The notes beneath the pieces were generated by a model. It did not search any database. It saw only the letters and a list, made by a program, of their open reading frames with translations, and had not been told where the DNA came from. Shown here in pieces: positions 9,301-56,700 of a stretch of DNA of 64,000 nt. Origin of the DNA: Harmothoe impar (lineage: Eukaryota; Annelida; Polychaeta; Phyllodocida; Polynoidae). Location of the stretch: the NCBI GenBank assembly GCA_947462335.1, contig OX381704.1, positions 44,892,942 through 44,956,941 on the forward strand. The letters run 5' to 3'. Position numbers and translations under genes: made by a program. Within the stretch, counting starts at the first letter, position 1, and each line of letters opens with the position of its first letter.

Positions 9301-12300
9301 GGGCGTGATGCTAACACGACACTCGAGGTGCACATCTCAGACGGGGGTCCTGACGACCCTGAGATGGCGCTCATTGACAAGATTGTCGCTGACCACCAGA
9401 ACTCGCCGAGTAAGTACCACCATGAGCGTCCCGTCCAGCAGTCTACCTATGTCCAGCAACACGCGGCACCCCGCACACCTAAAGGAGGCCACAGTGGCAG
9501 GACGCGCCACAAGGAGCCCCCACGCCCCAACAGTGGACGCATGTTGAATACAGGCGAGTTTGGGGCCACGGCCACACTACAGCGTAACCCATCTACGCCG
9601 CGCAGTGCCGACCTACTGGAGACCCAGTCACATAAGTTCACACAGGAAAAACCCTTCCAGCCACGCATCAACAAGACTAACCGCCAGTCCAGCCTCAGTC
9701 AGTTCAAGTACTACAACGCCCCACCCAAACCCCGCACCTCTAACCGGGCGGCCGGGGGGAGCACCGAGGGGGGGCGTGCTGCGGGAGGGGGAGGTACGCA
9801 GGTGATTAGTAGACAGGGTCCCACCCGGTCCACCACCCCACTCACCGAGAGTGTAGACTGGGCCAATGCCTCGATAATGAGTCGGGACCACGGCATGGTG
9901 CGGACTCCGACCGGCGTCCCGCCCCTCGATATCTCCCTCGACATGGACCACATGCAGTGGCTGAAAGAGCAGTCCAAGATGGCGCACCTCCGCTCTACGT
10001 ACCGCACCGATGCCGAGGGAGGGGACGTGACCAGCGCACCACCGCACAACCCGCTCAACCAGAGCGGGGTCACCAGCAGGATCAACTCTGGGTGAGTCGA
10101 CATTGTCTTCTTCATGTTGGGGTGAAAAGGAAGCAGTTCAGCTATTGTTTTACTTTGCTATATATTAATTAAACTAAAAACGCTGTTTTGTGTACTAAGC
10201 TACATGTGTTTTGCTTGTACTTGTTAACTTTTAAGGCCGGCATGAGGTTCTAGTGTCATGGTCATTTGTAGTGATGATGGACCAATGCAGCGCTGGCGAG
10301 TAATTTGGCAGGTCTGTGTTGGTGCAGGGTGTTGACCCTTTTGGAGTGTATCACCCCTATAGGGTCAGCATAATGCATAAATGCAGCCCTGAAGGGTTAC
10401 TCATCACGACTGATACGTCATGAGGACAAAGGCACATTACGCATTAAATCACTCTGCTGCCATTAAAGGGTTAATACCAGCAGAAAAAACTAAAACTTGA
10501 TTTGATAGTGTGGCAGTAGTCCCATATAGTGATGTACAGAAATATAATTTCTTTGAAGTCTAGCAATAGTTAGGGGTTTCATGTCCTACCCTATTTTTAT
10601 ATTCATTCTTTAAAAAATACAAATATGTAAATGTTTTTACGTATAAAACTCAAGAATTTATGATGGTAATTAATTATGCTCTTGATACTTACTATAAACG
10701 AATAAGTAATAAAACGTCAGATCTAAGGCCGAGAGTTCATATCTATACCAAACCATCGTTTGAAATTTCAATTTCTTTCCCATTGAAAATCTCGTTTATT
10801 CACTAACGAGTAGATTTACACGGTATGTTCAGAGATATTGCTAGAAATTGTTGTCTAGATGTACTTAAAAAAAACAAAATTCATTTTAGCATACTTTTCG
10901 TTACCTAAAATTTCTGCACCAGAATGATTGTTTTGACATCACAATTCTCAATCCTTTGCCAATTTCCGGTTGTTCCACAACAATTTCTTTTTCAAACAAA
11001 ATGACCACTCTCTTTTTATTAATCATTTTTAATAAGCATCCAATTATGTTCATATCTTAACCGCATCATTTTCACTGCGCATTTGACAACACCTTTGTCC
11101 AACTTGAAATAATGAAGGTCAATGGCAGGCAAAAAATGGAACACCATTATTTCTGCTGTACTTATTTTCACCAAGAAAACAAACGCCGGAAGTAATTACC
11201 AAGCTGTGTTAGTTTCCGGTCAGCTGAATTCTTCCACTAACAGTAATTCCCACAACCCCTCCCCCTTCCCGAAAAAAACGCTGATGATCTATGCTCTCAG
11301 TTATCTATACTAGCCATGTCGGTCTTTGTCAAGACTCTCTATGATTAAAATAGCTGTTTCTGATAAGCATCATTTTGACACTTCTTGAAAAACAAGAAGA
11401 TTTGGTCAATGTCTCTTGACTCCGGAAATTCCTCTTTTCCTCAGAGTTTGGGTCTGCCTTTAACTGAATAATATGTGTAAAAATATTTTTTTTTTAAAAA
11501 GGCCCTCAAACTAGTAATCCATTCATGAAGGAATGTAGAAACTGTCCATTTCACTGCCAAGAAAAAAAGGATAAAAATGAAATTCACAGTTAACACGCTT
11601 CATTAGTTTTTAAAGACTTAAATGTCATGGGTCAGTCTCCCCGCCACATAGCACGTCTCCTCTTTCATGTAAACGCCGTAATGAATGCAATTGCTGGTTT
11701 TAAATAACCAACCAATTAATCTGTGCTTTTCTGCGGGTATGTGAACTTCCTTGTGGCTAGTTCTGAGCTGGGAGACAAGTGGAGTCTGCATAGTGAGCCT
11801 GTCCGCGCAGTCCCGGACCGGGCAGGACCTATGTATGTATCATATTCCAGGCATTGTTATAGGACCTGACTTTCACCCATGCAACTCTACAGTGACATAT
11901 GCACCTACCTCAATCCTACAATTCATTCACCACCTCCGGGCTCCCCCACCCCACTCATTGTATGCTACAATTTCACACCAAATCCGTGCCTTTGTGAATC
12001 AATCAGAAAATAGGAATGTCGTGCCTAAAGTTTGAGACTCAGATGTCTTCCATATAATTCGCATGGATAAACATTGCATGCTCATCGTGTTTCGATAAAA
12101 CTTCTAATTTTACATTTTATCTGAAATTTCATGAACTTGTATTAATCATAATGAGTGTTTGAAATGATTGAGTAAATGTATACTTTATATCAAAAGTATA
12201 GACGTCTTACATATTATACAGATCTTCACAGATTTCCTCATCTTTAACACTGAAGAAGTACTTGTCTGTAATCATACTTACTTTTGTTGAGGATTTAATT

Positions 12301-29035: not shown

Positions 29036-29873
29036 CTGCCTACCAAGGACCCCCACAGACTCACCTCTATAGAGAGAATTATATCCATCATAGATCTATA
29101 GGATAACTGCACACCTGTCCACTCCATGTTATTATCCATCATCTGAGTCATTGCCAAGGTCACCGGCCTGTCACTATTTAGCCTACACTAATACCAGGAA
29201 TGTGAGGCAATGGACCTTTGCGCTAATTGCAGGAATCTGAGAAGTACAGGTGTATATGACTAGACACGTCTAAGAATGTGATACATTCAGACGTATACAT
29301 CAATCGCGTTGTTATTAGATCTTTAATTAAGCACGGGAGGGGGGGCATAGAGGCCTACATTTTATATATGTGACCAGGAACGTAAAAGTGGTACTGCGGG
29401 GGGATTATATCATCTAAGTTTAAGTTTACTATTTAAGATTTTTAAAACGAGACATCATAAATAAAAACGATAAAAGTAATAGGCTCTAAATTCACTGTAT
29501 CCCATAACTACTACTAAGATTATGAAAAAATCTGATTTACTAAAAACATAACCCAAAAAGAATATTAATTGTAGAATTTTAGTAGGAATTTTCAAGATAT
29601 ATGTAAAAAATATGTAAGATATTTTTGGCAAACTTCATGAGATGGTTTTGTCCATAAATTCCATTATAGAAGAGATATTTATATGCTGATTTCAACGTTA
29701 GGTGCCTGATGGATCCCTTTATTGACCTGAATTACCTTTATTACATTTTAGAATGAAAGAATGGTTTCCATGGCGACCAGAAACATCAATTTAGGGGGAA
29801 AACATTCCAAATAAGATTTAAAACATTCCAAATAAGGATATATTCTCTCAGAATGGAATGTTCTAATAAGAAT

Positions 29874-30262
29874 AGTAGTATAGTATGTATCAGAACGGGA
29901 CTATAGTTAACTACTGTTTATTACTCAATCGACATGCAGCCAATCAGAGGCCTCCATTTGGTCACGTGACCCCCTCATTTGCATAATTACGTAATAGGCC
30001 ACGCCCCCTCATTTGCATAATTACGTAATAGGCCACGCCCCCTTGATCACCAGCCAATCAGAGGCTTCCATTTGGTCACGTGACCCCCTCATTTGCATAA
30101 TAGGCCACACCCCCTTGATCACGTGACCCTTTCATTTGCATAATAAGCCACGCCCTCTTGATCACCAGCCAATCAGAGGTCGCCATTTGGTCACGCGACC
30201 CCCTCATTTGCATAATAGACCACGCCCCCTTGATCACGTGACCCCTTCATTGACATGATAGA
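29874..30262 (+). repeat. left terminal inverted repeat, motif array
   Basis: After the unique outer ~60 bp comes an array of ~70-bp units, each carrying AGCCAATCAGAGG, CCATTTGGTCACGTGACC, CCCTCATTTGCATAAT and GGCCACGCCCCC. I count five exact ATTTGCAT octamers, four CACGTG and three CCAATCAG in it. These are textbook sites for Oct, USF/MYC-type, NF-Y and Sp1/KLF factors. TACGTAATA occurs twice. A minus-strand AATAAA lies at 29917-29922 and could terminate transcripts leaving the element. Confidence 0.85.
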
Positions 30263-30415
30263 CCACAACAACATCACGTGACTATCTTTGTTTGTAAACA
30301 ACACCACGTGGCTCTCTTTGTTTGTAAACAACACCACGTGGCTCTCTTGTTTGTAAATAAGACCTACTAAGTTTAGGCATAGGTAACAGCAGTGTTTGTA
30401 AATAACGCCTACTAT
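30263..30415 (+). promoter_or_regulatory. CACGTG plus forkhead-site repeats inside left end
   Basis: Three units of ~31 bp each pair CCACGTGGC or TCACGTGAC with TTTGTTTGTAAACAA, a strong forkhead (FOX) core. Two looser copies (GTTTGTAAATAA) follow. The array lies directly beyond the 3' end of the alanine-rich gene. Confidence 0.5.
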
Positions 30416-30419
30416 GTTT

Positions 30420-31751
30420 TCAGTCATAGGTGTCTAGAGCAGCAGCAGCAGCAGCATCTTCAGCAGCAGCAGCAGCAGCAGCCGCGTCATAAGTGTCTAG
30501 AGCAGTAGCCACGTCATAGATGACTAGTGCAGCAGCAGCAGCAGCATCTTCAGCAGCAGCAGCAGCAGCAGCAGCATCATAGGTGTCTAGAGCAGGAGTA
30601 GCAGGAGCGTCATAGGTGTCTAGAGCAGTGGCAGCAGCAGCAGCAGCAGCATCATAGGTGTCTAGAGCAGGAGTAGCAGGAGCGTCATAGGTGTCTAGAG
30701 CAGTGGCAGCAGCAGTAGCAGCAGCGGCAGCAGCAGTAGCAGCAGCAGCATCAACAGTATCTTCAGCAAAAGCAGCAGCAGCCGCGTCATAGGTGTCTAG
30801 AGCAGTGGCAGCAGCAGTAGCAGCAGCGGCAGCAGCAGTAGCAGCAGCAGCATCAACAGTATCTTCAGCAAAAGCAGCAGCAGCCGCCTCATAGGTGTCT
30901 AGAGCAGCGGCAGCAGCATCTTCAGCAGCAGCAGCAGCAGTAGCAGCAGCGGCAGCAGTATCTTCAGCAGCAGCAGCGTCATAGGTGTCTAGAGCAGCAG
31001 CGTCATAGGTGTCTAGAGCATCAGCCGCAGCAGCAGCAGCATCTTCAGCAGCAGCAGCCTCATCAGCAGCAGTAGCAGCAGCAGCAGCAACATCTTGAGC
31101 ATCAACAGCAGCTTCAGCAAAAGCAAAAGCCCGTAACTTAGCATCATGGGCATCAGCTATAGCCGTAACAGCGACACTGCGACTAGCAGAAGCAAAACAG
31201 GCTATTTGTTTAGCAGCTGTACAAGCATTAATAGCATTAGCCCTAGCAGCAGCCGCAACAGCGGCACTTTTAGCAGGCGTTGCAGCATCAGTAGCAGCAG
31301 CATCGGTAGCAAGAGCGGAAACAGTAGCAAAAAGATTAGCAGCACGAGCAGCAGCGGCGAGAGTAACAGCAACGTTGTTAGCAGCATTGGCAACTTCGTA
31401 TGCTGCATGTGTAGCACGAACAGCGATACGAGCTTCACGTTTTGCACGAGCAGCAGCATTAGCTGCAGAAGTAGCCCTCACACTTTCCAGCCACCCGTAC
31501 GAATCTTGATAAAAACCAACTTCCACCTTACGAGCTTCACGTTTTGCACGAGCAGCAGCATTAGCTGCAGAAGTAGCCCTCACACTTTCCAGCCACCCGT
31601 ACGAATCTTGATAAAAACTAACCTCCACCTTGCTACTTGTTGACTCATCAGTAAACATGGACGTCTCCTCATGTGGTGTTGTCGCGGCTCTGTAGTAGTG
31701 TTGGGATTGCTCACATTCGGTAGAACGTAGAGTGATTCCTGATGACGCCAT
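30420..31751 (-). CDS. alanine-rich repeat protein, element cargo, 443 aa
   Basis: I do not recognise this protein. The frame starts at an ATG (31749-31751), is open for 443 codons and ends in TGA. Residues ~1-40 are ordinary in composition. Residues ~42-109 are two near-identical 34-residue units (KVEVGFYQDSYGWLESVR then ATSAANAAARAKREAR). From ~110 the chain is alanine-rich with regular Arg/Lys, as in amphipathic helices. From ~230 it is a degenerate array of AAAAEDAAAA and ALDTYDAAA units, encoded by GCT/GCA-rich repeats. There is no signal peptide or membrane segment. The non-repetitive start, the frame held through 1.3 kb and the duplicated 34-mer speak for a real protein. The triplet-repeat tail could also stay open by chance. 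No TATA box was found upstream, and the only downstream poly(A) signal seen is in the inverted repeat. Confidence 0.6.
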   Translation of the reverse strand: MASSGITLRSTECEQSQHYYRAATTPHEETSMFTDESTSSKVEVSFYQDSYGWLESVRATSAANAAARAKREARKVEVGFYQDSYGWLESVRATSAANAAARAKREARIAVRATHAAYEVANAANNVAVTLAAAARAANLFATVSALATDAAATDAATPAKSAAVAAAARANAINACTAAKQIACFASASRSVAVTAIADAHDAKLRAFAFAEAAVDAQDVAAAAATAADEAAAAEDAAAAAADALDTYDAAALDTYDAAAAEDTAAAAATAAAAAEDAAAAALDTYEAAAAAFAEDTVDAAAATAAAAAATAAATALDTYDAAAAAFAEDTVDAAAATAAAAAATAAATALDTYDAPATPALDTYDAAAAAAATALDTYDAPATPALDTYDAAAAAAAAEDAAAAAALVIYDVATALDTYDAAAAAAAAEDAAAAAALDTYD

Positions 31752-32044
31752 GCTGAAGGTGGTTGAAGAAGTGTGTGGGACTCATGTTTCACTCTCGCTT
31801 ATGTACTAGGCTCCGAGATAAGCTTCTTAACTCAGGAGGAAAACTCTCACTAGGAAGGCGACCGGCTGTCTACCTGTGTAGGCGCGGGTTCGTTACATCT
31901 TTAATCCTGTTCGACCCTCCGAGGAAATACATGAAAAAACAAAAGACTCGAATCCGCAGACAGTAGGAAGCTATAAGGAGCTTAACTCGTGTTTGATTTA
32001 AGCTGTCTACCACACGCACGCGCTTGTAGTCACAGCTAGAGTGG

Positions 32045-32560
32045 CAGACTTCTGTCCGCCCGCTGGCGCATGACAATCGACTTTAGACACCCCCTGTAGT
32101 TTGTTTTTTTGCATACACAGTTGACTAGCATCTTAAGCTCTTACTCAGCTATAAGCCCATATACATGTAACGCGCATTACTCTTCTCTATGGTAATTATC
32201 AGATCGATTTAAGGGTGGAAAGGGCTTAGGTGATGTAGATCCCTCTCTAGCTGAAAACAGGCTTAGACTATAGTATGTAGGCAGCTGGCCGCGTTAAACA
32301 CCCCTGTAGTTTTTTGTATACACTCTCGATCCCCTCTCTAGGTGAAAACAAAAGCTTAGAAGATGAGGTGATCCGGCCACTGGCTGGCGCGTCACACCTG
32401 GCGTTAATCACCCCCTGTAGGCTTTGTATACGCTCTCTAAGTGAAAAACAAAAAAGCTCCCTCCACGGGCTGGCGCGTCACACCTGTCGTTAAAACGCCC
32501 CCTGGAGTCTTAGTATACACAGGTGCCCCGCCTTATCTATTCACCAGCTATAAGCCCATA
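32045..32560 (+). repeat. four to five ~100-bp promoter-like modules
   Basis: The modules share GGCTGGCGCGTCACACCTG, CGTTAA..(C)ACCCCCTG(T/G)AG, a GTATACAC/GTATACGC block and CTCTCTAGGTGAAAACA. GCTATAAGCCCATATAC occurs at 32151 and 32547, and a better TATA (CTATATAAAG) follows at 32646. They look like repeated upstream elements of a plus-strand transcription unit. Confidence 0.55.
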
Positions 32561-32646
32561 TACGCGTACATGCGATTTTTGATACCCTCTCTGGAATAGG
32601 GTGGGGCTCAAGGTGAAAACAAGATTAGTCCATTCGCTCTCTCAGC

Positions 32647-32761
32647 TATATAAAGAGCCTCAATTGTTCTTGCAACAGCACTTCACCACCGGTACACTAT
32701 CAGTCACGAGGCAGATGTTTGCGGCATGGGTCATACAGGTTACCTACTAATAGCGGTTTGG
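32647..32761 (+). promoter_or_regulatory. TATA box and candidate first exon
   Basis: TATATAAAG at 32647-32655 is followed by an ATG in very good context (GCGGCATGG, 32726-32728). The frame MGHTGYLLIAVW runs straight into a consensus splice donor, TGG|GTGAGT, at 32762. The hydrophobic start could be the head of a signal peptide. I could not find a convincing second exon, so this is a candidate only. Confidence 0.3.
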
Positions 32762-33321
32762 GTGAGTAGATCACTTTTTTTCCCCTAAAAAACAAAAAAA
32801 AAAACCCACTTATGACTCAGGTATGTATATGTAGCACTGTTAGTGTAAGTACACAGTAGAATCTACTGTACTATAGACTCGGCCCTCTGAAGACGGCGGA
32901 GCGCGTTAATGCGCGGGTCTGTGGCGGCGTCACTTGTTTTTTATTCTAACTAAAAAGTCAGAAGTCGATCTACGACCTATCAAAGACAAATTTGTGATAA
33001 GTTCAAACTAAATAAGACAGTTTGAGCGTCTCTTAGTCGCTGTCAAAGATGCGAATAACGAACGCGCTGAGGGCGGGGTTCAGGTCACGTATAGTTCCTT
33101 GCTCTTTCGTCAGATGGCGCCACAATAGGGGATTTGTACATTCCTACGATGCTCGCGAACATTTCAACGCATAATGAGCTATATAGGCAACAAAGTGTGC
33201 TTCTGAATATATTAAAATATAAAAACAATTCAATATTGTGTATTTCTGATAGAAATGAGGCAGTTTCTTTGAATACCAACTAAACTATAGCGAGATGAAA
33301 AATACCACACCATATCTAAGG

Positions 33322-33555
33322 CTTTATAAAAGATACATAGGCAGAAACTCTCGCCGAGTAGGTAATCTGAAAAACGAACCAACTCGTTGTGCCACAAGGG
33401 CCCCCACTCAACGGGGGCCTTTTGAGCTCAGGCATGTTGTTTCTCAACACTAGGTGTAATTAATTACGCCCATGTTGAGTAGCATCTACTAACCAACTGA
33501 CAGTGTCAGTTGGTTGGCCCCTCTTTAGGGGCCACACAATAAATAAAGAATAGAG
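33322..33555 (+). ncRNA. candidate structured RNA: TATA, four hairpins, poly(A) signal
   Basis: CTTTATAAAAG (33321-33331) is a good TATA box. Beyond the expected start come four hairpins: GGCCCCC-ACTCAAC-GGGGGCC (~33399-33419), CTCAACA...TGTTGAG around GGTGTAATTAATTACGCC (~33444-33480), CCAACTGACA-G-TGTCAGTTGG (~33492-33512) and GGCCCCT-CTTT-AGGGGCC (~33516-33533). ACACAATAAATAAAG follows at once. The last hairpin plus ACACA resembles the replication-dependent histone 3' stem-loop, though its stem is 7 bp rather than 6 and no histone frame is present. No open frame is found between TATA and AATAAA. The hairpins are seen; the RNA is an inference. Confidence 0.4.
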
Positions 33556-33769
33556 ACCTAAGGGAACGTTCACAAACGTCTCCCCTTCCTACGGGGTGGG
33601 TGGGTCTTTGGGTTTAGTGACAAAACAGCGACATGTCAGTTCTCTTTTTTTTTCCAAGTCTACATATTATTTATGATTAAAAAAATTTAAAAAAAAACCA
33701 CGCTAATAAAGTGCGCTGATCAAAAACTGAATAGAAAAATAACCAAAAATAGGTTGGTAGCTGATCGGT

Positions 33770-35055
33770 CGTTGTCACACGGTGCAGAAAATTTACTGCA
33801 TATCGGACCAGGGGATAGTCTGGCAGCGACCCGCCACCCCGTCCACAAGCTGTGTACAGCACCCCGTTTTTCTTTGTCCATATTGGCTAAAAAAAACGGG
33901 ACATTGTTGACTTGGCTATTTTACCCGTCTGGGTCTTATTATTTAAACACCTCGTGTTGACCCTGTGGGGCAGCGGGTACATGGAATAAACGTGTCCAAG
34001 TGCACGCTATCTAACACATAACCGAAGGTTACTGAGTTATGTAATAATAGTTATGTAATAATAACTGACCTATGAGGTCGCCAGTCAGTTTGCCGTGATT
34101 ATTTTGACACACTCTCAGTTACTCGTAGCACATCTAATACATAATTAGACTCAGCCTCATATAAGACAGTCTCGGCCACGCAGGCTGCATATCGGACCAG
34201 GGAGATAGTCTGGCAGTGACCCACCAGCCCGTCCACAACCTGTGTACAGCACCCCATGTCTCTTTGTCCATATTGGCTAAAAAAAAAACACAAAAAAACA
34301 GGTCATTGTTGACTTTGGCTATTTTACCCGTCTGGGTCTTATTATTTAAATCACCTCGTCTTGACCCTGTGGGGCAGTGGGTATATGGAATAACCGTGTC
34401 CAAGTGTACTCTATCTAACACATAACCAAAGGTTACTGAGTTATGTAATAATAACCACCCTATGATCCTATGAAGGCGCCAGTCAGTTTGCCGTGATTAT
34501 TTTGACATACTCTCAGTTACTCGTAGGGTATCTAATACATAGTTAGACTCAGCATCATATAAGACAGGCTCGGCCACGCCGGCTGCATATCGGACCAGGG
34601 AGATAGTCTGGCAGTGACCCACCAGCCCGTCCACAACCTGTGTACAGCACCCCGTGTCTCTTTGTCCATATTGGCTAAAAAAAACCCCAAAAAACAGGTC
34701 ATTGTTGACTTTGGCTATTTTACCCGTCTGGGTCTTATTATTTAAATCACCTCGTCTTGACCCTGTGGGGCAGCGGGTATATGGAATAACCGTGTCCAAG
34801 TGTACTCTATCTAACACATAACCAAAGGTTACTGAGTTATGTAATAATAACCACTCTATGATCCTATGAAGACGCCAGTCAGTTTGCCGTGATTATTTTG
34901 ACATACTCTCAGTTACTCGTAGGGTATCTAATACATAGTTAGACTCAGCATCATATAAGACAGGCTCGGCCGCGCCAGCCGCATATCGTACCAGAGGGAT
35001 AGTCTGGCAGCAACCCGCCATCCCGTCTACAATCTGTGTACAGCAGTCTGGACCA
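33770..35055. repeat. ~397-bp tandem repeat, about 3.25 copies
   Basis: Anchor CGTGATTATTTTGACA recurs at about 34095, 34491 and 34887, and GCATATCGGACCAGGG recurs at about 33798, 34185 and 34583. The two later intervals agree at 396-397 bp and the oldest unit is slightly shorter. Each unit holds an ACATAAC...GTTATGT stem. A minus-strand open frame of ~100 codons reappears in the units. It has no recognised domain and may be chance. Confidence 0.85.
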
Positions 35056-35094
35056 GACCACCAACTCTGGGTATAGCATTCTGGATGCCTGTAG

Positions 35095-35285
35095 CAAGAC
35101 TGGATCTAACCCTTTAATAGTCGCATAGCGCTTTAATGTGCAGTGCCCGTTGTCGTCATAAGTCATGAATGCGGCACTCAGAGTTCCTCACCAGGGCTGC
35201 ATGCATGCATACACTGGCATATCGACAAAGGGCGTAGCGCATTAAAGCACTATTGCCACCTTTAGCATTAAAGCGCTGAGGGTTT
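35095..35285. repeat. dispersed CCCTTTAA family copy inside the giant element
   Basis: It starts AACCCTTTAATAGTCGCATAG, contains AAGTCATGAATGCGGCACTC and GCATGCATGCATACACTGG, and ends GCATTAAAGCGCTGAGGG. It matches family copies outside the element, so it either was inserted into the element or was carried by it. Confidence 0.6.
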
Positions 35286-35556
35286 GTTTGTTTTTTTGAT
35301 AGTGTAGAAACCAATATCTGTCTAATTAAACCCCTTATCAGTGCTGTTTTTTTTTGGGTTTTTTTCACATACAAAAAGAATTAGGTAATGGCGCTGCAGT
35401 ACTCTGAAAAGCGGTGGCGGTGAATTTCCATTTAGATCCTGAAAAGGGGGGCGGTCAGATGTCGTCAAGGCTCTGATAAGTAGGGCAGTTAAAATCATAT
35501 GATTACATTGAGCTAATTTTCTTGCTGAAAGGAATGAATAATTGTATTTGTATAAA

Positions 35557-35708
<152 letters not shown>

Positions 35709-35939
35709 ACACCTGATGATCTCCACACGATGACCTGATTGCTCTTCCTAAAAAAAAAAATGCCCAACTCGATCTACCTACTCAACAGGGTTTCAGTGTA
35801 TAGCGTATTAGGGGTTTTTCTGATGCGTATATTATATTGAGATTGATTTTCAACTTTTGTGATCAGTGGTTGGTCCTTAAAAGGACCGTTTGGTAGAGAG
35901 AGGGTCGCAGGGACCTTGCTGCTGAAGCGGAGGGCGTGG

Positions 35940-36293
35940 TCATAACGCGTGGCAGTCTTTCAGCAGCTCCTCCAGCACGGCGGGCGGTAGTCCTTCTTCC
36001 ATGCAGACTTGCTGCTTGACCTGCTCCACGCACCGGCGGATGAGTTGATCAGCGACGTTCTCGATCAGCTCATCCACCACACCCTCTGCTTCAGCAGCAG
36101 TCCGCTGTCTCTCCTCTCTCTGTAGCGAGGCAAAGAACTGCTTCTCCACGGCCGCATCGATCATAGATCGAGAAACGGCCACGAAGTTCTGTCTCTCCGC
36201 CTCCTCTCTCTGTTGCACGGCTACGAATTCCTTCTCCACGGCCGCATCGATCATAGATCGAGAAACGGCCACGAAGTTCACTCCGTGAGCCAT
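35940..36293 (-). CDS. small charged helical protein, element cargo, 117 aa
   Basis: I do not recognise this protein. The first ATG in frame is at 36291-36293 in strong context (AAAATGG); the frame itself stays open further up to 36338 without another ATG. A 30-residue unit starting NFVAVSRSMIDAAVEK is present twice in tandem, each followed by a QREE-type charged stretch. The C-terminal half (VVDELIENVADQLIRRC, then VEQVKQQVCMEEGLPPAV, then LEELLKDC) is predicted by eye to be helical and amphipathic, so a coiled-coil or oligomer role is plausible. There is no signal peptide. A minus-strand TATA box and a CRE lie upstream (36330-36489), which favours a real gene. It is 4.2 kb from the alanine-rich gene, on the same strand. 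Stop is TGA. Confidence 0.55.
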   Translation of the reverse strand: MAHGVNFVAVSRSMIDAAVEKEFVAVQQREEAERQNFVAVSRSMIDAAVEKQFFASLQREERQRTAAEAEGVVDELIENVADQLIRRCVEQVKQQVCMEEGLPPAVLEELLKDCHAL

Positions 36294-36329
36294 TTTGTCG
36301 AACTGACTTGCTAGCCGCCTGAGAGATGC

Positions 36330-36489
36330 TGACGTCACACTATTTTCGACGACGCTATGACGCGCACGAGGTAGACAGACGACGTCGTTTCACTTCCTTA
36401 TTTGGAGTTTGGGATCTTTTGACACCGAAGTCATACCGTACGGTCGCGATAAAGCAACTAGTGTTGAAAAGCGTGCCGGTCTTTTATAA
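36330..36489 (-). promoter_or_regulatory. TATA box and CRE upstream of the 117-aa gene
   Basis: On the minus strand TTATAAAAG (36481-36489) is a near-perfect TATA box about 190 bases before the ATG. TGACGTCA (36330-36337), a perfect CRE, falls in the presumed 5'UTR. Start of transcription is expected near 36455. Confidence 0.5.
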
Positions 36490-37807
36490 GCGCTGGAGTA
36501 TAAGAGCCTCCAAATGTTTTTTCTCAAGCACTAAAATCGCGACTTTGAATAAGCGCCAGCGCCTGGCTTGTATATAGCTCCTGAGTAAGAACTTCACCGA
36601 ATTGAAAAGCCCTCCCTCAGAGCTCTTAATCGCGACAGTACGGTACAAATCTGATGTCAACCCGCGCCAAAAACAAAAAAGGTGTTCCGGTCACACGTAC
36701 CTACGACGAGCGACCTTCAGCTATCACCACGTGAAGAGTGGGAAATAAATTTTGTACGGCAAGAAAACTGAAAACTGATAACGATTCCATTAGATAAGTA
36801 TTTGGTTCCAATCTATGGCGAGATATTTCCACCAAAGCGATTGATTTATATGTCTGTAAGGTTCAGCTCTCCAACACTCTCCAATGTCCGCCGGTGCACG
36901 ACGGTCGCCGCCCATCATTAGTCACAACTAAACTTCTGCTGGAGAGTGAAAGTTACGTTGAGTCTTGAGGTGCGCAGAGATACTATCTGCCGCAGCCTGA
37001 TTTTAGTTCCACGCTATTTAGATAACCGCCCCATTTAAAATCTCTCTCTCGATCCTAGTAAAGGAAAAAAAAAGGCTAGAGTTTATCATGGACGCGTCTC
37101 AGTTTCAGTCAAGCCGTAAAGTGAAGAACCAGAGCTTGTACATATTCCCACGTGGTGAGGGGTGACCCCGCGGGGCGTTCAGTTAGTACTGAGTCTATAG
37201 TACTGAGTCTATACTCAAGGTCAAGTTCCACTCTCTAAACAGAGCTTTAGCGACTCCGTCATATAGACTAGACCGCGCGCGCGATTTTTTTTTGCTGAAG
37301 CAGCTAATCGATGGAAGAGTAGAGAACAGGTGCTCGACCAAAAATCTGCTTCAGAGGCTTGTTATCAGGTATTAACAGTTAAATCAAAATATTTCAAAAC
37401 ATCCAGAAAAGCAGAATAACATGTCCTACGGGCTACAGCCGGGCACTGACGAGCAGACGGCGCTGACGTCATTTCAATCAGGTCACAGGGCTCTTTAGAC
37501 ACCTTTTCTGTAAGACCCGTCTCATACCTTAGTATATAATACCGTAAACACCGGTGATTAGTATATGATCACATTGGAGTCGCGGATCCACGAAGAGGCT
37601 GAATAAGCCTCGCGCGGACCCGCCACTTGAAAATGTGACATAATCTTACCATGCGCTTTGTTTTGTTTTTGTTTCTATTTACAACAGCAAACATTTCAAA
37701 CAACCTATTGTTTTTTTAAAATGATGAAAAATCAGCCCAAAAAAAAAGTAAACATTTTAGAGCTAAATTTGTGGAGGATAGCCGGACATGCTGATGTCAC
37801 TAGACCC

Positions 37808-38165
37808 CTAAATTCGATATGGTGACATGGGCATTTTCTTAAAATTCGATACGACGACACGGGCACGGACATCTAAGTGACATGGGACATGTGGCATTTC
37901 TTGAGTCCCACATGTGCCATGGACCATAGTGACATGAGGAAAAAAAAAAAAAAAATGTTCAAAGAGTGCATCAGAAAAGTGCCATTTCAAGCCTAAACAT
38001 TTCGCCAAATTTTTTTTTCTCTTGGATGGTACTCGGTTTTGCAGTGTCTGGGTCCTTAAAAATGTACCAGAATGCTCAAATTCGGGTTCTAAATATTTTC
38101 AAAAAACGTTTTCTCCCTTAGTGACGTGTGACATGGACATTTCTTAAATTCGACATACGGCTGCA
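37808..38165. repeat. CGACATGGGCATTTCTTAAA-type repeats inside the element
   Basis: AATTCGATATGGTGACATGG, GCATTTTCTTAAAATTCGAT and, at 38120-38165, GACATGGACATTTCTTAAAT share words with the repeat at 28975-29035 outside the element. A palindromic CACATGTG pair lies at about 37887-37917. Confidence 0.5.
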
Positions 38166-38558
38166 TGGGGAGGACCCACCCGTCAAGGGCCCCATGATGA
38201 CTCATACCCGCCGCGTTCAAACTAGCGTGGTGGTTATAGGTAGACCTTCTTTCAGTATCCACGTGACCAGATCCATCGCCGTCTCTTGAGCAACAGTAAC
38301 CGAGGTAACTAGGGTTATTGTTATCCGGTCCGTAAGACGACAGTCTAAGACGGTGTGTAGTCGCGTTTTGCTCTCCCTAATACTCTAATTCAAGTCGAGT
38401 TACCGCTAACCCCTACAAAAAGAGGGTCATTTGTGTAATTCAAAAGGCGTTCCTTTGTTAGCAATGAGGGGGTCGTTCTATTCATTGATTTTTTTATTTT
38501 ATTTTTTATTTTTTATTTTTTTGTTTACAACAACAAGTCAAAGTACAGTCAATCAACC

Positions 38559-38596
38559 GAGATCCTTTCTACTCCGTGGGGGTGTAGAAGGATCTC
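38559..38596. repeat. 13-bp-stem hairpin
   Basis: GAGATCCTTTCTAC pairs with GTAGAAGGATCTC (one bulge) around CTCCGTGGGGGT. It is followed by CCCCCCTGAGG and repeated AAGTCACAAAGTCGC words (38600-38700). A C-rich tract with CCCCCCTCCCCCCC units fills 38877-38998. No gene is seen between 36500 and 39050. Confidence 0.6.
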
Positions 38597-39059
38597 CCCC
38601 CTGAGGTTACAAAGTCACCTCTTTATTTAAAGGGTTACAGGTCGCAAAGTCGCTTTCGCTTTCGCTTACAAGTCACAAAGTCGCATGAAATATTCAAGTC
38701 AAAAAGTCAAATTCATCAACTATCAGCACAGTCGTTTGAAAAGCATCAAGTCACCGAAAAACTCCTCTACAGTCACCTCCGACTCGCCTCCTCCCTACCC
38801 CCCTAAAGGGGGGGTAGAGAGGAAGCGATTCCCTAGAGATCAGATAATTTTTTTTTTTTTTTTTCTCCCGAGCAGACCCTAAAAGCCCCCCCTCCCCCCC
38901 AAGTGCCCGCCCACCCCATAAATAGTGCCCCCCTCCCCCCCCTCCCCTCCCCATGCATCTTAAAGTGCCCCCCTCCCCCCCTCCCCTCCTCCCCTCGCCC
39001 CTTATAGAAACCTCCCATTAGCTAGTCCAAGTCATGTGACCAAAAGGGAGGCGTAGTCT

Positions 39060-39560
39060 GTCTATTGTCTATATTATGCAAATGAGGGAGGGGGTCAGGT
39101 CACGTGACCAAGGGAGTGTGGCCTATTTTCTAAATAAAGAGCGCTTCCGGTCACGTGACCAAGGGGTGTGGTCCTATTATGCAAATGAAAGAGTCACGTG
39201 ATCCATGATTATGCAAATGAGGGAGTCACCTGACCAAATGGAAGCCACTGATTGGCTGGTGATCAAAGGGGCGTAGTCTACTATGCAAATGAGGGGGTCA
39301 CGTGATCAAGGGGGCGTGGTCTATTATGCAAATGAGGGGGTCACGTGGGGGTCACGTGACCAAATGGTGGCCCCTGATTGGCTGGTGATCAAGGGGGTGT
39401 GGCCTATTACGTAATTATGCAAATGAGGGGCGTGGCCTATTACGTAATTATGCAAATGAGGGGGTCACGTGACCAAATGGAGGCCTCTGATTGGCTGCAT
39501 GTCGATTGAGTAATAAACAGTACTTAACTATAGTCCCGTTCCGATACATACTATACTACT
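39060..39560 (-). repeat. right terminal inverted repeat, motif array
   Basis: It mirrors the left end. I count seven ATGCAAAT octamers, seven CACGTG and three CTGATTGG (inverted CCAAT) in about 490 bp, with GGGGCGTGGCC boxes and two TATTACGTAATTATGC blocks. The outer ~130 bp match the left end almost exactly; farther in, unit number and order diverge. A plus-strand AATAAA lies at 39512-39517, so both ends carry an outward poly(A) signal. Confidence 0.85.
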
Positions 39561-39566
39561 AAGAAT

Positions 39567-45677: not shown

Positions 45678-45898
45678 TAGCCCTGCCCATTATCCTGATT
45701 GTCTATTAGTGATGGCATAGAGTTCGGATTGTGGTCAACAAAGATTGCAGATTGTTGTTTTTGTATATTACATTATAGAAAAACATAGAGGGGAAAACAT
45801 TTAGTTCTACAAGAACTGATATCACACATATTGTACCTCTGTGCACAGGCATTATAACACATGGAACCTACTGGCATTTATGCTAATCCCTTTTGACG

Positions 45899-48895
45899 AT
45901 GGATAAAGTGAAACAAGCAGATATTAAAACTTTAGGGGTGAAGGATATATGTAGAGTGAAGGGGTTGAAACTGGTACATTTGAATTGTCGGAGCTATAAT
46001 CAGAAGACAAGGGATGAAGTCCAAATTGTGATGGATGGATTTGACATAATATCACTTTCTGAAACATGGACTCACAGGTTGTACGATGATGCCTTACTAA
46101 ATTGGACAGGTAAGGATTATCATAGACTAGATAGGCCAAATAAGGTTGGCGGTGGTCTTTTATGCTACTTGAATGCAGAATTCTATGAGCACTCAGAGGT
46201 TGTGCCACATCTTACACGTATGACAAAAGACATTGAATGTTTAGTGGTATCGGTGCACAAACCGGGAAACAAGGCCATGATGATAATTAATGTGTATAGA
46301 CCAAATGGTACTGATGCTGACATTGATGCATTCTTTAAAGAATTGTCAAAAATTGTAAAGAGTGTAAAGAAAAAGGAGATTTTTGTCATGGGTGATTTCA
46401 ATGTCAATGTCCTGGAGAGGTCCAATCAACTGAAGGAATTCTGTCGTAAAAATAATGTTAGGTGGCTAATAAATGAGGTGACGCGGCCCTATCATGGGGG
46501 TACAGCGATCGATAACATTCTGACCAACTCAAGGTTTGTTTCACAGACTGGGGTAAGGGGAGATTTGATAAGTGATCACTTGCCTGTGTATGTAGTTAAA
46601 AAGAAGGACAGGAATAGGACCTTCAGGAATTCCTTTCAGGGTCGGTCATATAAGAGTTATTGTAAAGATGAGCTTGAAGATATTTTGACCGAAGTTGATT
46701 GGGAAGAATTCTACTCTCTAGACTCAGTTGACAAAAAATGGCTTTTTATTGAGAATACTGTTACAGAATATTTAAACAACAAATGTCCTGTAAAAGAATA
46801 TGCATTCAGGGATTCTGGCAACCAGTGGCTCACAGCTGAAATAGTCTTTGAAACGCATGAACGGATGGATATGATTAAGAGGTATAAAATCACCAGGAGG
46901 GAGGTCTTCCTCTTGAGGGCGAAAGAACTCAGGAGGAGCATCTCTAAGAAAGTGAGAAAAGCCAAAGTGGCCTATGTACGTGGAAAACTGGAGGAGTCGA
47001 GGGGAAATCATAGAAAGTTCTGGGCGCATATAAACAAAATTATTAATCCTCCTAAAGAGAGAGAAACGGTAAGGTTATTTGACCAAGAGACAGGAGATAA
47101 AATTGAAGATGTGCCGAATCATATAAATGATTTCTTCTCAACAGTTGGAGATGATCTGTTCTCAAAATTGAATGATGTAAATGACCAGATAAGGGTACCA
47201 CTGTTGAATGATGCATGGAATGAGGCATCCTATGTACAAAAAATGCCTGATTTTGCTAATATTGATCAATGTGTAGTGAGGGAACTGATAAGAGATATTG
47301 ATGTAAATAAGCCTTCTGGGCTACACTGTATTAGTGCGCGAGTATTGAAGGATGTTCTTGGGTTTGTAACACCACACTTGACACACATATACAATGAGTC
47401 TGTTACCACTTGTATTTTCCCCAAATCATGGTCTGTTGCTAAGGTTACCCCAATACCGAAAGGTACAAAATCCAAATATGTAGGTGATTGGCGACCAATT
47501 TCAATATTACCCCTACCAGGTAAATTATTGGAAAAGTTAATACAGGGGTACATGATGTGGGTTTTGGAAGAAAAAGGCTTCTTCTCAGAGCACCAGTATG
47601 GGTTCAGATCTGACAGGAGCACAACAGAAGCAGTCCTAGACTTGGTGGAGGATTTCTTCCTAGCCAAGGACAAAAGTTTGATAACGGCAGCAGTCTTTGT
47701 GGATGTGGCCAAGGCCTTTAATTCAGTCCACCACTCAATTCTGCTGGAGAAAATAGGGGAACTGGGTTTTCCGGCTAAGATTTTTGGATGGTTGGCTTCC
47801 TATCTGAAAGATAGAAAGCAAGCCACTTTTGTCAATGGCAAACTGTCAGAGTTGAAAGATGTACGTTATGGAGTGCCTCAAGGATCAGTTCTGGGTCCTA
47901 CCTTGTTCACAATATTTATTAATAACATTGCTAAAGATACTAAAAATGTGAAGGTTAAGCTCTATGCTGATGATCTGGTATTATACACGTCACATAAATC
48001 ACCGCAGGTAGCATGTATGAATCTACAAGCGGGTTGCGATACACTTTGTATGAATTATAGAGAGCTGGGTCTGACTGTTAATATAGCCAAGACCAAAAGC
48101 ATCTGGTATGGATCGAGACAGAAATGTGCTACTGTGCCAAAGCTGGAGATATTTATGAATGGTGAAATTGTAAAACAGGTAGTTTCCTTCCTATATCTTG
48201 GTACCATGTTGGATCAATGTCTCACTATGGAGGATCAGATACATAGAGTCCTAAATAAAGGCAATCAGTTGGCGTTTAAACTTGGAAATATTAGATACCT
48301 AACAGGGGCCGAGATTGCTATCATCATTTTCAAGCAAACTATATTGCCCAGATTTGATTACTGTTCTCACCTCTTAGATATTGCCTCTCAAGATAGTATA
48401 AAGAAGCTCCAAAGTGTACAGAACAGAATCTTGCGGTCCTGTCTCATGATAGGGACAATGGATGAGTCTACGGATGCGGTCCATCTCCTGTGTGAGACGC
48501 CAAAGCAACAGGTTAGAAGGCAAGAGTTATTGCTGTCATGTATGTACTCTAAAGCCAAAAAACTTCCTCCCCCTAAAAAAGGTGATGAAGCTAGAACAAG
48601 GAATGATGTGAAAAGAAATTTCCCTATTGTTACGTCCAAATTACATGGATATGATAAAAGCCCATACCATAGAGGGGCGTAGCTCTGGAACAGTTTGGAC
48701 TTTGAAGTCCAGATGGCTCCAAACAAAATGATTTTCAAAGAGAAGATTAAGAAAAAACTAGGTACTAACCTGAAAGGGGCTAGGGAGAAGTTTTTGGCGG
48801 TTAGAAGAAACAGGAGAAATGATGGGAGGCGAAATGTACAGCCAAACCTCTATTTTGATGTCTTCCCAGTGAGGAGAAGAACAAAAGAACAATAA
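45899..48895 (+). pseudogene. LINE endonuclease/reverse transcriptase, one nonsense codon
   Basis: This is the retrotransposon's nicking endonuclease fused to reverse transcriptase. The true ATG is 45899-45901. The AP-type endonuclease has LVHLNCRSYN, SLSETW, GDFNV (~165) and SDHLPV. The reverse transcriptase has DWRPISILPLPGKLLEKL (~530), FVDVAKAFN, GVPQGSVLGP and the catalytic LYADD (YADD ~689-692). The frame stops at TAG 48680-48682, yet the same frame continues past it with LWNSL and a basic tail to 48895, as in intact relatives. The only visible break is therefore one nonsense codon. The otherwise undamaged 2.8 kb points to recent insertion. Confidence 0.9.
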
Positions 48896-53732: not shown

Positions 53733-56700
53733 ATGCTGAGGTATCTTCTGGTTGCCCACTTTGCCGTGGCAGTGGCAGTGTTCAATAATGAGGAGTTGCC
53801 TAATAATGACTTGTTCAAACCTGGAGACCTGGTCATTGCTGGTATGTTCCCACGTAGTCTGCGGGAACCTGGCCAGGTCTGCGGTAAATTCAAATTTAGA
53901 CTTGCTATACAGGGGGCCGCTGCCATGATGCATGCTATTGAGCAAATCTCAGCAAGCCATTCGATCCTGCCCAATATCAGCCTTGGGTACCTGCTCATGG
54001 ATGACTGTGCTAGTGAAGCTGTTGCCGTGGTCAAGGCCTCACAGCTTATACCAATAAAACAATGTGTAAAGGACGGTTGTGGAATTGGACTTAATCCAAC
54101 ATCTCATGTGCTGACTTCTGGGACCAATCCACAGTACGATGTGGTTTGTCTAATTGGACCAAATACAAGCACTATGCAGATGCGAACAAGTCTACTTCTC
54201 AGCTTATATGAGATCCCCCATATAGGCTGGATAACGACATCTGATGCCCTGAGTGACAAATGGCGGTACAAGTACTTTACAAGGGTCATTCCACCTGACC
54301 GCTACCAGGCCAGAGCTTTGACAGACATTATCAATCATTACAACTGGACATACATCTCCACATTGTACAGTGCGGGTTCATATGGGTCTACAGGAATCAG
54401 GTAAGGTGGCAAGAATAAAGATGATGGAGTGTGTGTAATGATTACTATTATTGATATATACAATGATCAAACATGGCTGTGTAGTTCGAGTATCAGGAAA
54501 TCTATGCATCATGAGCCTGGGCATTAGAGCCTCCAGTGTATGCTGCACTTATTTACTGCTGGTTATTTAACTCTTCACAGGAATACACTCAAGTTTTATT
54601 AAGCGGTCAGTCCTAGAACTTGACAAATATTTCTTTTACACATTTTGATGGGAAAACATGATAATAATGGACAAATATCAAATTAAAGCTTACAGTGCTG
54701 CAAATGCGATGGTATAAAGAAAACATGCATATTCACAACTTGGGTAGATCATTGATTTCTTAATTAGTAAGACATGTCTTTAGTTTGCCGAGAGCCTAGG
54801 GTCCCCATCTCATTTAGCCCTCAGCAAAGAAAAAAGCAAAAAAAAGCACCCTCGTCATATTTCTAATGGCTTGGTGATAAGAAACAAGTATATCATTTGG
54901 AGTGATCTTACTTTCACGATTTAAAACTAAAGGATTTTCGATTGATTTCAGATATGTGCGCCAAGCAACTAAAGCCCTTGGAGTGTGCATTGCCTTCTCT
55001 CTGGAACTTCACAATGACTTCACAGATAGTGACTATGACTGGGCAGTTGCCCAGCTAAGAAAGAATGCAAAAGCTAAGGTGGTGGTCTACTTTGTTGTAG
55101 CACGCCACGGAAAACGTATGATGACAGCCATAGAGAGGGCTAATGCTGAAACTGAATTCATAACTCTGTCGGCTGATGGCTTCTTGGCCCATACTGTTAG
55201 TCATCTCACACATGCTAAGAAGAACTGGTTAGCACTTCAAATCTCTGGAGGGGAAGATCCTGTATTTAACAGTTACTACAAGCAGCTACGCCCCTTTGGA
55301 ACAGGTGATAAGATGTGGACTGGTGAATATAACGAGAACTTAGCTGACCTTAACTGCTCCTGGAATGTGCCTAACGACAACAAGAACTCCTGTCACAGAT
55401 TTAAGACATATAATGAAGTTGAAAGTCACATCATGACCAATGCAGCAGTTCTCATTAAGGATGCGATAGACACAACAGGACTGGCCCTGCACAACCTTAT
55501 ATCAGATACTTGCCCAGATGCTTTTAGAAATAAAGCCCTTCTCAAGACCTGTGTCAATGGTCCACTTCTCCTGAAGTATATCCGCAATACTAAATTCAAA
55601 GGGTTATCTACAAACATAGAATTTGACTCATCAGGTGATTTGGTTGATGGTTCTTATGATATTATGTCATATTCCTGGGATGTCAAAAACAGGTGGGTAG
55701 ATAAGATAGCAGGCACATGGCAGGTAAAAACTGGAGCAGTTGAAATAGACGAGAATAAGATAACATGGTGGCGAAAAACACCTGATGGCAACTATGTTAG
55801 CACTGGTGAGATACCTGAATCAGTCTGTGCCAAACCTTGCCAAGTGGGGGAATTCTACCTCATGGGAGAGCTATCCTGCTGCTGGGAATGCCGAAGATGT
55901 CGTAACAACGAATACCTGAGGTCCAATTTGTTGGGATGCGATATCTGTCCTCTTAAAACCTGGCCCGATCAAGTCAACTTCACTACTTGTGAACCTATAC
56001 CACCCTCATATATGCACTGGTCTGATCCCATAGCTATTGGTCTCATATCAATGGCTGCAGCCATGATTCTTACAACCATCATCATCACAATTATTTTCAT
56101 CAAGAACAGAGAGAAAAAGGTAATTAAAGGATCAAGTCGTGAACTCATGGTACCAATTATTATAGGGTTGTATCTGGCATTTGCTACTGTCTTCTTCTTT
56201 GTCGCAAAGGCTGATGACTGGATATGTTATGCAAACTACCTTGGCTTCAATCTGAGCTGTACACTCATTTTTGGACCACTCTTTGTGAAAACACTACGCA
56301 TTTACAGGATCTTTGCAGCTGCTGAGAGATGTGAGATTAGGGTACGTCATGTGGATGCAAAAACGCAGATCTTCGCAATGCTCATTATATTCATGATCCA
56401 GGTGAGTGTTTTCATGATAAGAATGCATTGACTCAAATATAATACCTAAAATATTCAAATTATTTTGACCCCTCTAGATTTGTGGCAAAGAAAATCCATC
56501 CTATTTCAGCAAAAATAATAGTGCAAACAAAAGGAGTTGAGGTTGAAATCTTCTGATCACTTCCCAAAATCCTAACCTGTTTTGTAAGAATAAAGACGGC
56601 TCCCGAGGGAATTCTTTAATTTTACATACAGTAATCAAGATTTCCCTTCCATTCAAAATCATTTATAGAATACAAATTTCTTCTCAATTTGTTTTCCTGA

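Follow-up and report, generated by a model that had tools for sequence, protein, structure and literature searches.

A 9,687-bp element within a 64,000-nucleotide stretch of contig OX381704.1 (the window) is, with a probability that we put at about 80%, one segment of a segmented Polinton-like virus or transposon present as thousands of integrated copies in the genome. The host was taken to be an animal. Elements that share the tips of the window element fall into five classes of 8.7 to 10.5 kb, whose outer ~86 bp are alike and whose interiors differ. One class (M) bears putative capsid, packaging ATPase, protease, and integrase genes, and another (P) bears a putative family-B DNA polymerase; none of these was recognized on the window type (class W) or on the other two classes (Q and R). 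Since the genes of M and P are complementary, a Polinton gene set appears to be split here across separately mobile segments.

A first-pass annotation of the window had described a cargo-bearing element with Polinton-like ends and no Polinton genes. The AAGAAT flanks, inverted ends, two candidate frames, and arrays that it named were all recovered, and the mapped features (window coordinates) are as follows.

29874-39560: element (class W), 9,687 bp, between two AAGAAT hexamers
29868..29873: left target-site duplication AAGAAT
39561..39566: right target-site duplication AAGAAT
29874..30267, plus strand: left inverted end, ~394 bp
39167..39560, minus strand: right inverted end, ~394 bp
29874..29959, plus strand: outer 86 bp, left, common to all five classes
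39475..39560, minus strand: outer 86 bp, other end, common to all five classes
29937..30364: tandem arrays of CCAAT, CACGTG, ATTTGCAT, TTACGTAA, and GGGCGTGG-type sites
30420..31751, minus strand: Ala-rich open frame, 443 codons (W443)
32827..32859, plus strand: class-W 33-mer used as counting marker, 1,020 genome matches at ≤2 mismatches
33796..35045: ~396-bp tandem array, 3.2 units
35560-35706: CA array
35848..35892, minus strand: match to the histone-type 3′ untranslated region stem-loop RF00032, 33.4 bits, E = 1.2e-6
35940..36293, minus strand: 117-codon frame counted from ATG (W117)

The inverted ends start AGTAGTATAG, and their ~394 bp open with AGTAGTATAGTATGTATC. They are 87% identical over 394 bp per side with gaps counted, and the outer 130 bp of the two ends are unlike at two positions. 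GCA arrays also occur in the interior. The outer 86 bp would serve as a protein-primed replication origin and as the end recognized by an integrase, and the site arrays at 29937..30364 may act as a promoter or enhancer.

The first-pass annotation had expected other copies and an empty site, and both were found. A 33-mer from the tip had 10,509 exact matches in the genome (1.51 Gb, 736 contigs; 5,232 forward and 5,277 reverse), while its reversed control had none. Copies were chosen by size among the 100 tips listed for the initial 5.2 Mb of contig C1; tips look denser at this place, at 100 in 5.2 Mb versus ~36 expected from the genome mean. Exact 6-bp duplications flanked 22 of the 24 two-ended copies, window included, and none of these copies had matching flanks when lengths of 4, 5, 7, and 8 bp or register shifts of as much as 5 were tried. 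The Polinton-type ends and 6-bp duplications of the earlier description hold for the family. The duplicated hexamers lean toward NAYRTN, a weak palindrome; of the 22, 14 have A at position 2 and 11 have T at position 5. The window copy is inserted inside a host repeat. When its flanks were joined with a single AAGAAT, 39 other places matched across the junction at 83 to 89% identity (40 of 99 candidates scored; the 42 rows comprise these 39, the element's own site, and two partial matches). Three of the 39 were aligned and displayed a single hexamer at the junction (AAGCAT twice, ATGCAT once), which was gap-free, with small gaps elsewhere. One class-P copy is nested in a class-M copy and flanked by an ATGGTG duplication; its joined flanks reproduced an uninterrupted M copy at 194 of 194 positions without gaps. 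This nested insertion, with its duplication and uninterrupted counterpart, indicates that P inserts on its own. An 18-mer of the tip had six matches in the viral_contigs collection; one of these, L006, looks like a phage contig with the match lying within a frame, and the remaining five were taken as chance.

The classes were distinguished as follows.

Class W, 8.7-9.8 kb: window type; two copies are longer owing to inserts
Class P, 9.0-9.7 kb: putative family-B DNA polymerase
Class M, 10.3-10.5 kb: putative capsid, packaging ATPase, protease, and integrase
Class R, 9.8-9.9 kb: Death-domain frame; whole sequence read for two copies
Class Q, 9.2-9.7 kb: no ATG frame of at least 110 codons in the four copies read

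Class markers (≤2 mismatches, partial copies included, reversed controls zero) matched the genome 2,561 times for P, 1,527 for M, 1,132 for Q, 1,020 for W, and 641 for R, a total of 6,881. At ~9.7 kb each, these would amount to an estimated ~67 Mb, or some 4% of the genome. BLAST comparison of the interiors showed that M, P, and W have almost nothing in common beyond the tips and that Q has short stretches in common with W and R; the interior of R is partly like that of P (71 to 86%; copies L062 and L063). Among the 41 tip pairs in C1:0-5.22 Mb, 11 carried the marker of P, 10 that of W, 9 that of M, and 8 that of Q; the three markerless pairs proved by sequence to be one M and two R, and no pair carried two class markers. 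The 18 unpaired tips were placed by their own sequence (8), by marker distance (9), or by geometry (1), so that all 100 tips listed for this region could be assigned to M, P, Q, R, or W. Only two of the 41 pairs exceeded 10.6 kb, both of them W copies with later inserts. We considered these oversize copies as autonomous elements and rejected them, one insert apparently holding a LINE (long interspersed nuclear element)-like frame of 1,003 codons and the other repeated short frames.

The polymerase frame of class P has 1,372 to 1,375 codons and is open in four of seven P copies. It matched PF03175 above the cut-off (E = 8e-7) and contains a DTDS motif, and on these features it is predicted to be a protein-primed family-B DNA polymerase. 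P also bears a ~526-codon frame with a PC4 match below the cut-off (E = 1.2e-4) and a frame of ~248 codons whose Death-domain match exceeds it (E = 1e-7). Ratios of nonsynonymous to synonymous substitution rates (dN/dS) between sub-lineages (three copies versus one) were 0.19 to 0.21 for the polymerase, 0.31 to 0.37 for the PC4-like frame, and 0.22 to 0.34 for the Death-domain frame, and these low values indicate that the P copies come from lineages with working proteins. In class M, matches above the cut-off were obtained for the packaging ATPase (Adeno_IVa2, E = 1.7e-5), the integrase (rve, E = 3.2e-13, with a weak Chromo match below the cut-off), and the protease (Peptidase_C5, E = 6.3e-5). 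The sequence profile of a further frame of 435 codons had no match in PDB sequences; its AlphaFold2 model (predicted local distance difference test score of 87) matched in Foldseek the double-jelly-roll capsid proteins of PBCV-1, Sputnik, and mavirus, and the protein is accordingly modeled as a double-jelly-roll major capsid protein. It has 41 relatives; the three named ones belong to a sea urchin, a sea cucumber, and a limpet. All three M copies have the capsid, integrase, and ATPase frames open; single dN/dS ratios, each based on a handful of changes, lay between 0.1 and 3.6, the copies differing too little for a conclusion. A 372-codon frame of M without a Pfam match resembles a minor (single-jelly-roll) capsid protein and may encode one. 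Class R bears a frame of 524 or 525 codons with a Death domain (E = 1.5e-10) and two related frames of 283/285 codons. The Death-domain proteins, exemplified by L016:1149-1892 on P and L062:4181-5752 on R, perhaps act on host cell death; to our knowledge, such proteins are unusual for Polintons.

Conventional Polintons are also present in this genome, with capsid and polymerase adjoining (for example, C2:58138257-58142338 and C7:1193988-1198066). In a survey with a sea-urchin capsid protein (95 matches scored of 2,675 candidates), a polymerase lay within 20 kb of 28 of the 41 capsid matches outside class M, at a median of 3.5 kb, versus none of the 54 class-M capsid matches. The polymerases considered there were the best-scoring ones only, and class P is not among them; the survey thus shows M to be apart from conventional polymerases only. 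That M is apart from P rests on the 41 tip pairs and on exact-match markers on C1 (at least 54 of M and at least 100 of P), where a single M-P pair within 11 kb was the nested case described above. No contiguous element with all the core genes was found among the 41 tip pairs and the gene neighborhoods sampled. The first-pass annotation had suggested looking for full Polintons with the same ends. Polinton-type proteins do occur between such ends, but on two segments, M and P, rather than in a single element. We encountered no non-Polinton transposase with these ends.

Mean identity of the outer 86 bp, determined on 43 ends, was 0.956 between classes (704 comparisons) and 0.958 within them (199 comparisons), with a minimum of 0.59 that is due to truncated tips. 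In bases 101 to 400, identity was 0.83 within versus 0.51 between classes (random half of the comparisons). Tips that are as alike between as within classes indicate that all segments retain a single short sequence, or that it is held uniform among them. The near-identical ends of the window element had been read as a sign of recent movement or end-to-end copying, but because tips are so alike across classes they do not demonstrate recency, and we abandoned dating from end-to-end identity. Behind the common tip, each class displays its own array of transcription-factor-like sites. Counts per end in the first 400 bp were 5.3 Oct-type and 3.0 KLF-type sites for W, 5.9 ETS-type and 2.2 CRE-type for P, 3.9 E2F-type for Q, and 1.8 X-box-type for M, with 3.5 to 6.0 E-boxes in all classes; means in first-order shuffled sequence were ≤0.18, and the motifs had been picked after viewing the sequence. 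The factor names, here and for the arrays at 29937..30364, are labels for putative sites. The R copies L062 and L063 each have one R-type end and one Q-like end (98 to 99% over 500 bp), which suggests end exchange by recombination between segments; the partly P-like interior of R points the same way.

No Polinton core gene was recognized on W by Pfam in 22 frames, as the first-pass annotation had stated. These were 22 of the 48 stop-to-stop frames listed, at most eight per reading frame, and took in all minus-strand start-to-stop frames of at least 120 codons; W443, W117, and 20 further frames of 56 to 131 codons gave no match above the cut-off. A search for relatives of W443 found none. W117 had two, of 92% and 79% identity, both on short ENA contigs, and its frame is retained in all six W copies. 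The predicted structure of W117 consists of one long helix and one short helix; we discarded the model as a clue to function because it is a mere long helix. The stem-loop match lies 47 nt past the W117 stop and scored 33.4 bits against a curated cut-off of 34 (33.9 bits in a second W copy tested). The stem-loop itself, of 16 nt, is invariant in six of six W copies, which include two sub-lineages ~90% identical. At curated Rfam thresholds the window had no match; matches to isrG, Afu_254, and microRNAs at relaxed thresholds were taken as array or chance. The dN/dS of W117 was 0.50 to 0.92 between sub-lineages and, on few changes, 0.13 and 0.16 in two close pairs and 0.72 in another; that of W443 was 0.70 to 1.47, with one copy left out for its broken frame. 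A ~263-bp stretch of W (window 33089-33351) occurs three times in class Q (L020:3462-5535) at 83 to 92%; this possible promoter unit includes a TATA-like sequence. A GCN-type triplet array was present in every segment class read, as isrG matches or Ala-rich frames (window 30420-31110; L020:1571-1735; L035:781-1111; L019:6127-6389; L062:5148-5609).

In the mechanism that we propose, the P polymerase and a priming protein would start copying at the AGTAGT of every segment and proceed end to end, the M capsid, protease, and ATPase would package segments of ~9 to 10.5 kb, and the M integrase would insert each segment with a 6-bp stagger. W would be served in trans, as an accessory or satellite segment; its mobilization in trans is suggested by the common ends. 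W may also express a small protein; its mRNA would have a 3′ end of the replication-dependent histone type, and W would thereby be linked to S phase. The earlier view of W as a non-autonomous element mobilized in trans is thus supported by same-ended Polinton-type partners, within a larger system of five classes; its view of W as a cargo carrier is less secure, as W may instead be a regular accessory segment or a satellite. In its most detailed form, the proposal describes a segmented double-stranded DNA virus or transposon of animals with five linear segments, one protein-primed origin, host-factor arrays proper to each segment (Oct/KLF, ETS/CRE, E2F, and RFX types), separate replication, packaging, and germline insertion, end exchange, and, for at least one segment, an S-phase mRNA of the histone type, to which we give slightly better than even odds.

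Several observations weigh against a segmented system. The copies were sampled by place at the start of C1 and are non-random; one (L018) lacks a duplication, and another (L021) agrees at five of six positions. The P polymerase is divergent, at 23 to 27% identity to three other Polinton polymerases of the genome. Neither the M capsid profile nor W117 had relatives in viral_contigs, in searches with short patterns of limited reach. The stem-loop scores 0.6 bits below the curated cut-off and was not detected in six P, M, and Q copies, two of which were read without their last ~600 bp, and the W frames are weakly or not constrained. All of the support comes from sequence, and a rare full-length parent may exist elsewhere. 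Such a parent would fit the view that all five classes arose by shortening of a full-length Polinton that survives and mobilizes them. Conventional Polintons exist in the same genome, and DNA transposons often give rise to internal deletion derivatives; we nevertheless consider this unlikely, since the genes of M and P are complementary, their frames are open at the rates given above (capsid, integrase, and ATPase in M, polymerase in P), the inner ends differ by class, and the 41 tip pairs included neither one with two markers nor one above 10.6 kb other than the two W copies with inserts. Moreover, four conventional polymerase loci lacked the tip decamer in the ~4.5 kb read, which falls short of their true ends.

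That W and Q are pure satellites, with ends for replication and integration only and no role for the other segments, is a serious possibility that we rate somewhat short of even. The lack of recognizable genes on W, of longer ATG frames on Q, and of strong constraint on the W frames all favor it, whereas W117 has been kept in every W copy and has relatives elsewhere, and the stem-loop has stayed identical despite the divergence of the W sub-lineages. A satellite W is compatible with a segmented Polinton-like system, in which W may be a helper of the other segments or a rider on them. A host-tamed, polydnavirus-like system, in which host-made particles carry the segments, seems very improbable. 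Segmentation and integration do recall bracovirus proviral segments, as far as the accessible text of PMC1919376 and PMC8549517 describes them, but the copies here are dispersed in thousands, with target duplications and a nested insertion, and the genes for integrase and polymerase are part of the mobile copies themselves.

Elsewhere in the window, long terminal repeat-type reverse transcriptase/integrase frames and a LINE-type frame were noted at 3298-5433 and 45893-48679, and host genes at 9232-10092 and 54902-56428 (an HSD3/SPATA7 match and a class C G protein-coupled receptor).

The ends, duplications, and gene set described here are known from Polintons/Mavericks; what is not matched is that the genes form one element. 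The (AGT)2//(ACT)2 ends, inverted repeats, and 6-bp duplications agree with the vertebrate Maverick pattern, in which repeated end motifs have been tied to the jumping-back step of protein-primed replication, according to the accessible part of PMC8097293. Taken jointly, M and P supply the family-B polymerase, retroviral-type integrase, double-jelly-roll capsid, packaging ATPase, and adenovirus-type protease of such an element. The M and P system would thus work like a Polinton, yet we would not file it as an ordinary one: Polintons hold their genes in one element, whereas here the genes are distributed over separately inserted segments with 6,881 marker matches. Vertebrate Mavericks average 22 copies per genome, the highest number named in the accessible part of PMC8097293 being 287. 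Bidnaviruses, including the Drosophila Vesanto virus, likewise combine a Polinton-derived polymerase with a segmented genome, and in the accessible portions of PMC4061559, PMC8363768, and PMC11071296 their linear segments number from two to perhaps twelve, and many of these resemble one another in their terminal repeats. Unlike M and P, they are described in these portions as single-stranded DNA viruses with a parvovirus-type capsid and segments of 3.3 to 6.5 kb, and the accessible text of PMC4061559 and PMC8363768 does not describe thousands of germline insertions. No NS1-type helicase match was obtained among the M, P, and R frames scanned, and the predicted capsid is of the double-jelly-roll rather than the parvovirus type.

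Adintoviruses resemble the present system as Polinton-related animal viruses. Their gene set is adenovirus-like. Those of Drosophila have single genomes of 13.3 to 14.6 kb in the accessible text of PMC8363768. Bracoviruses also have several double-stranded DNA segments with integrated forms. Their proviral loci are clustered, versus the scattered, target-duplicating copies found here. They carry nudivirus genes and package their segments as DNA circles, as stated in the accessible text of PMC8549517. In the open-licence literature, so far as its text was accessible (including PMC11071308), we found no report of a segmented Polinton, Maverick, or adintovirus. When the replicase is located on one mobile unit and the integrase and capsid on another, each apparently immobile alone, the question arises of how they cohere from one generation to the next; with thousands of copies in a single genome, it can be tested. 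Segmented genomes are frequent among RNA viruses but seldom found among DNA viruses. A segmented Polinton-like system suggests a route by which Polintons could have given rise to segmented, bidnavirus-like genomes.

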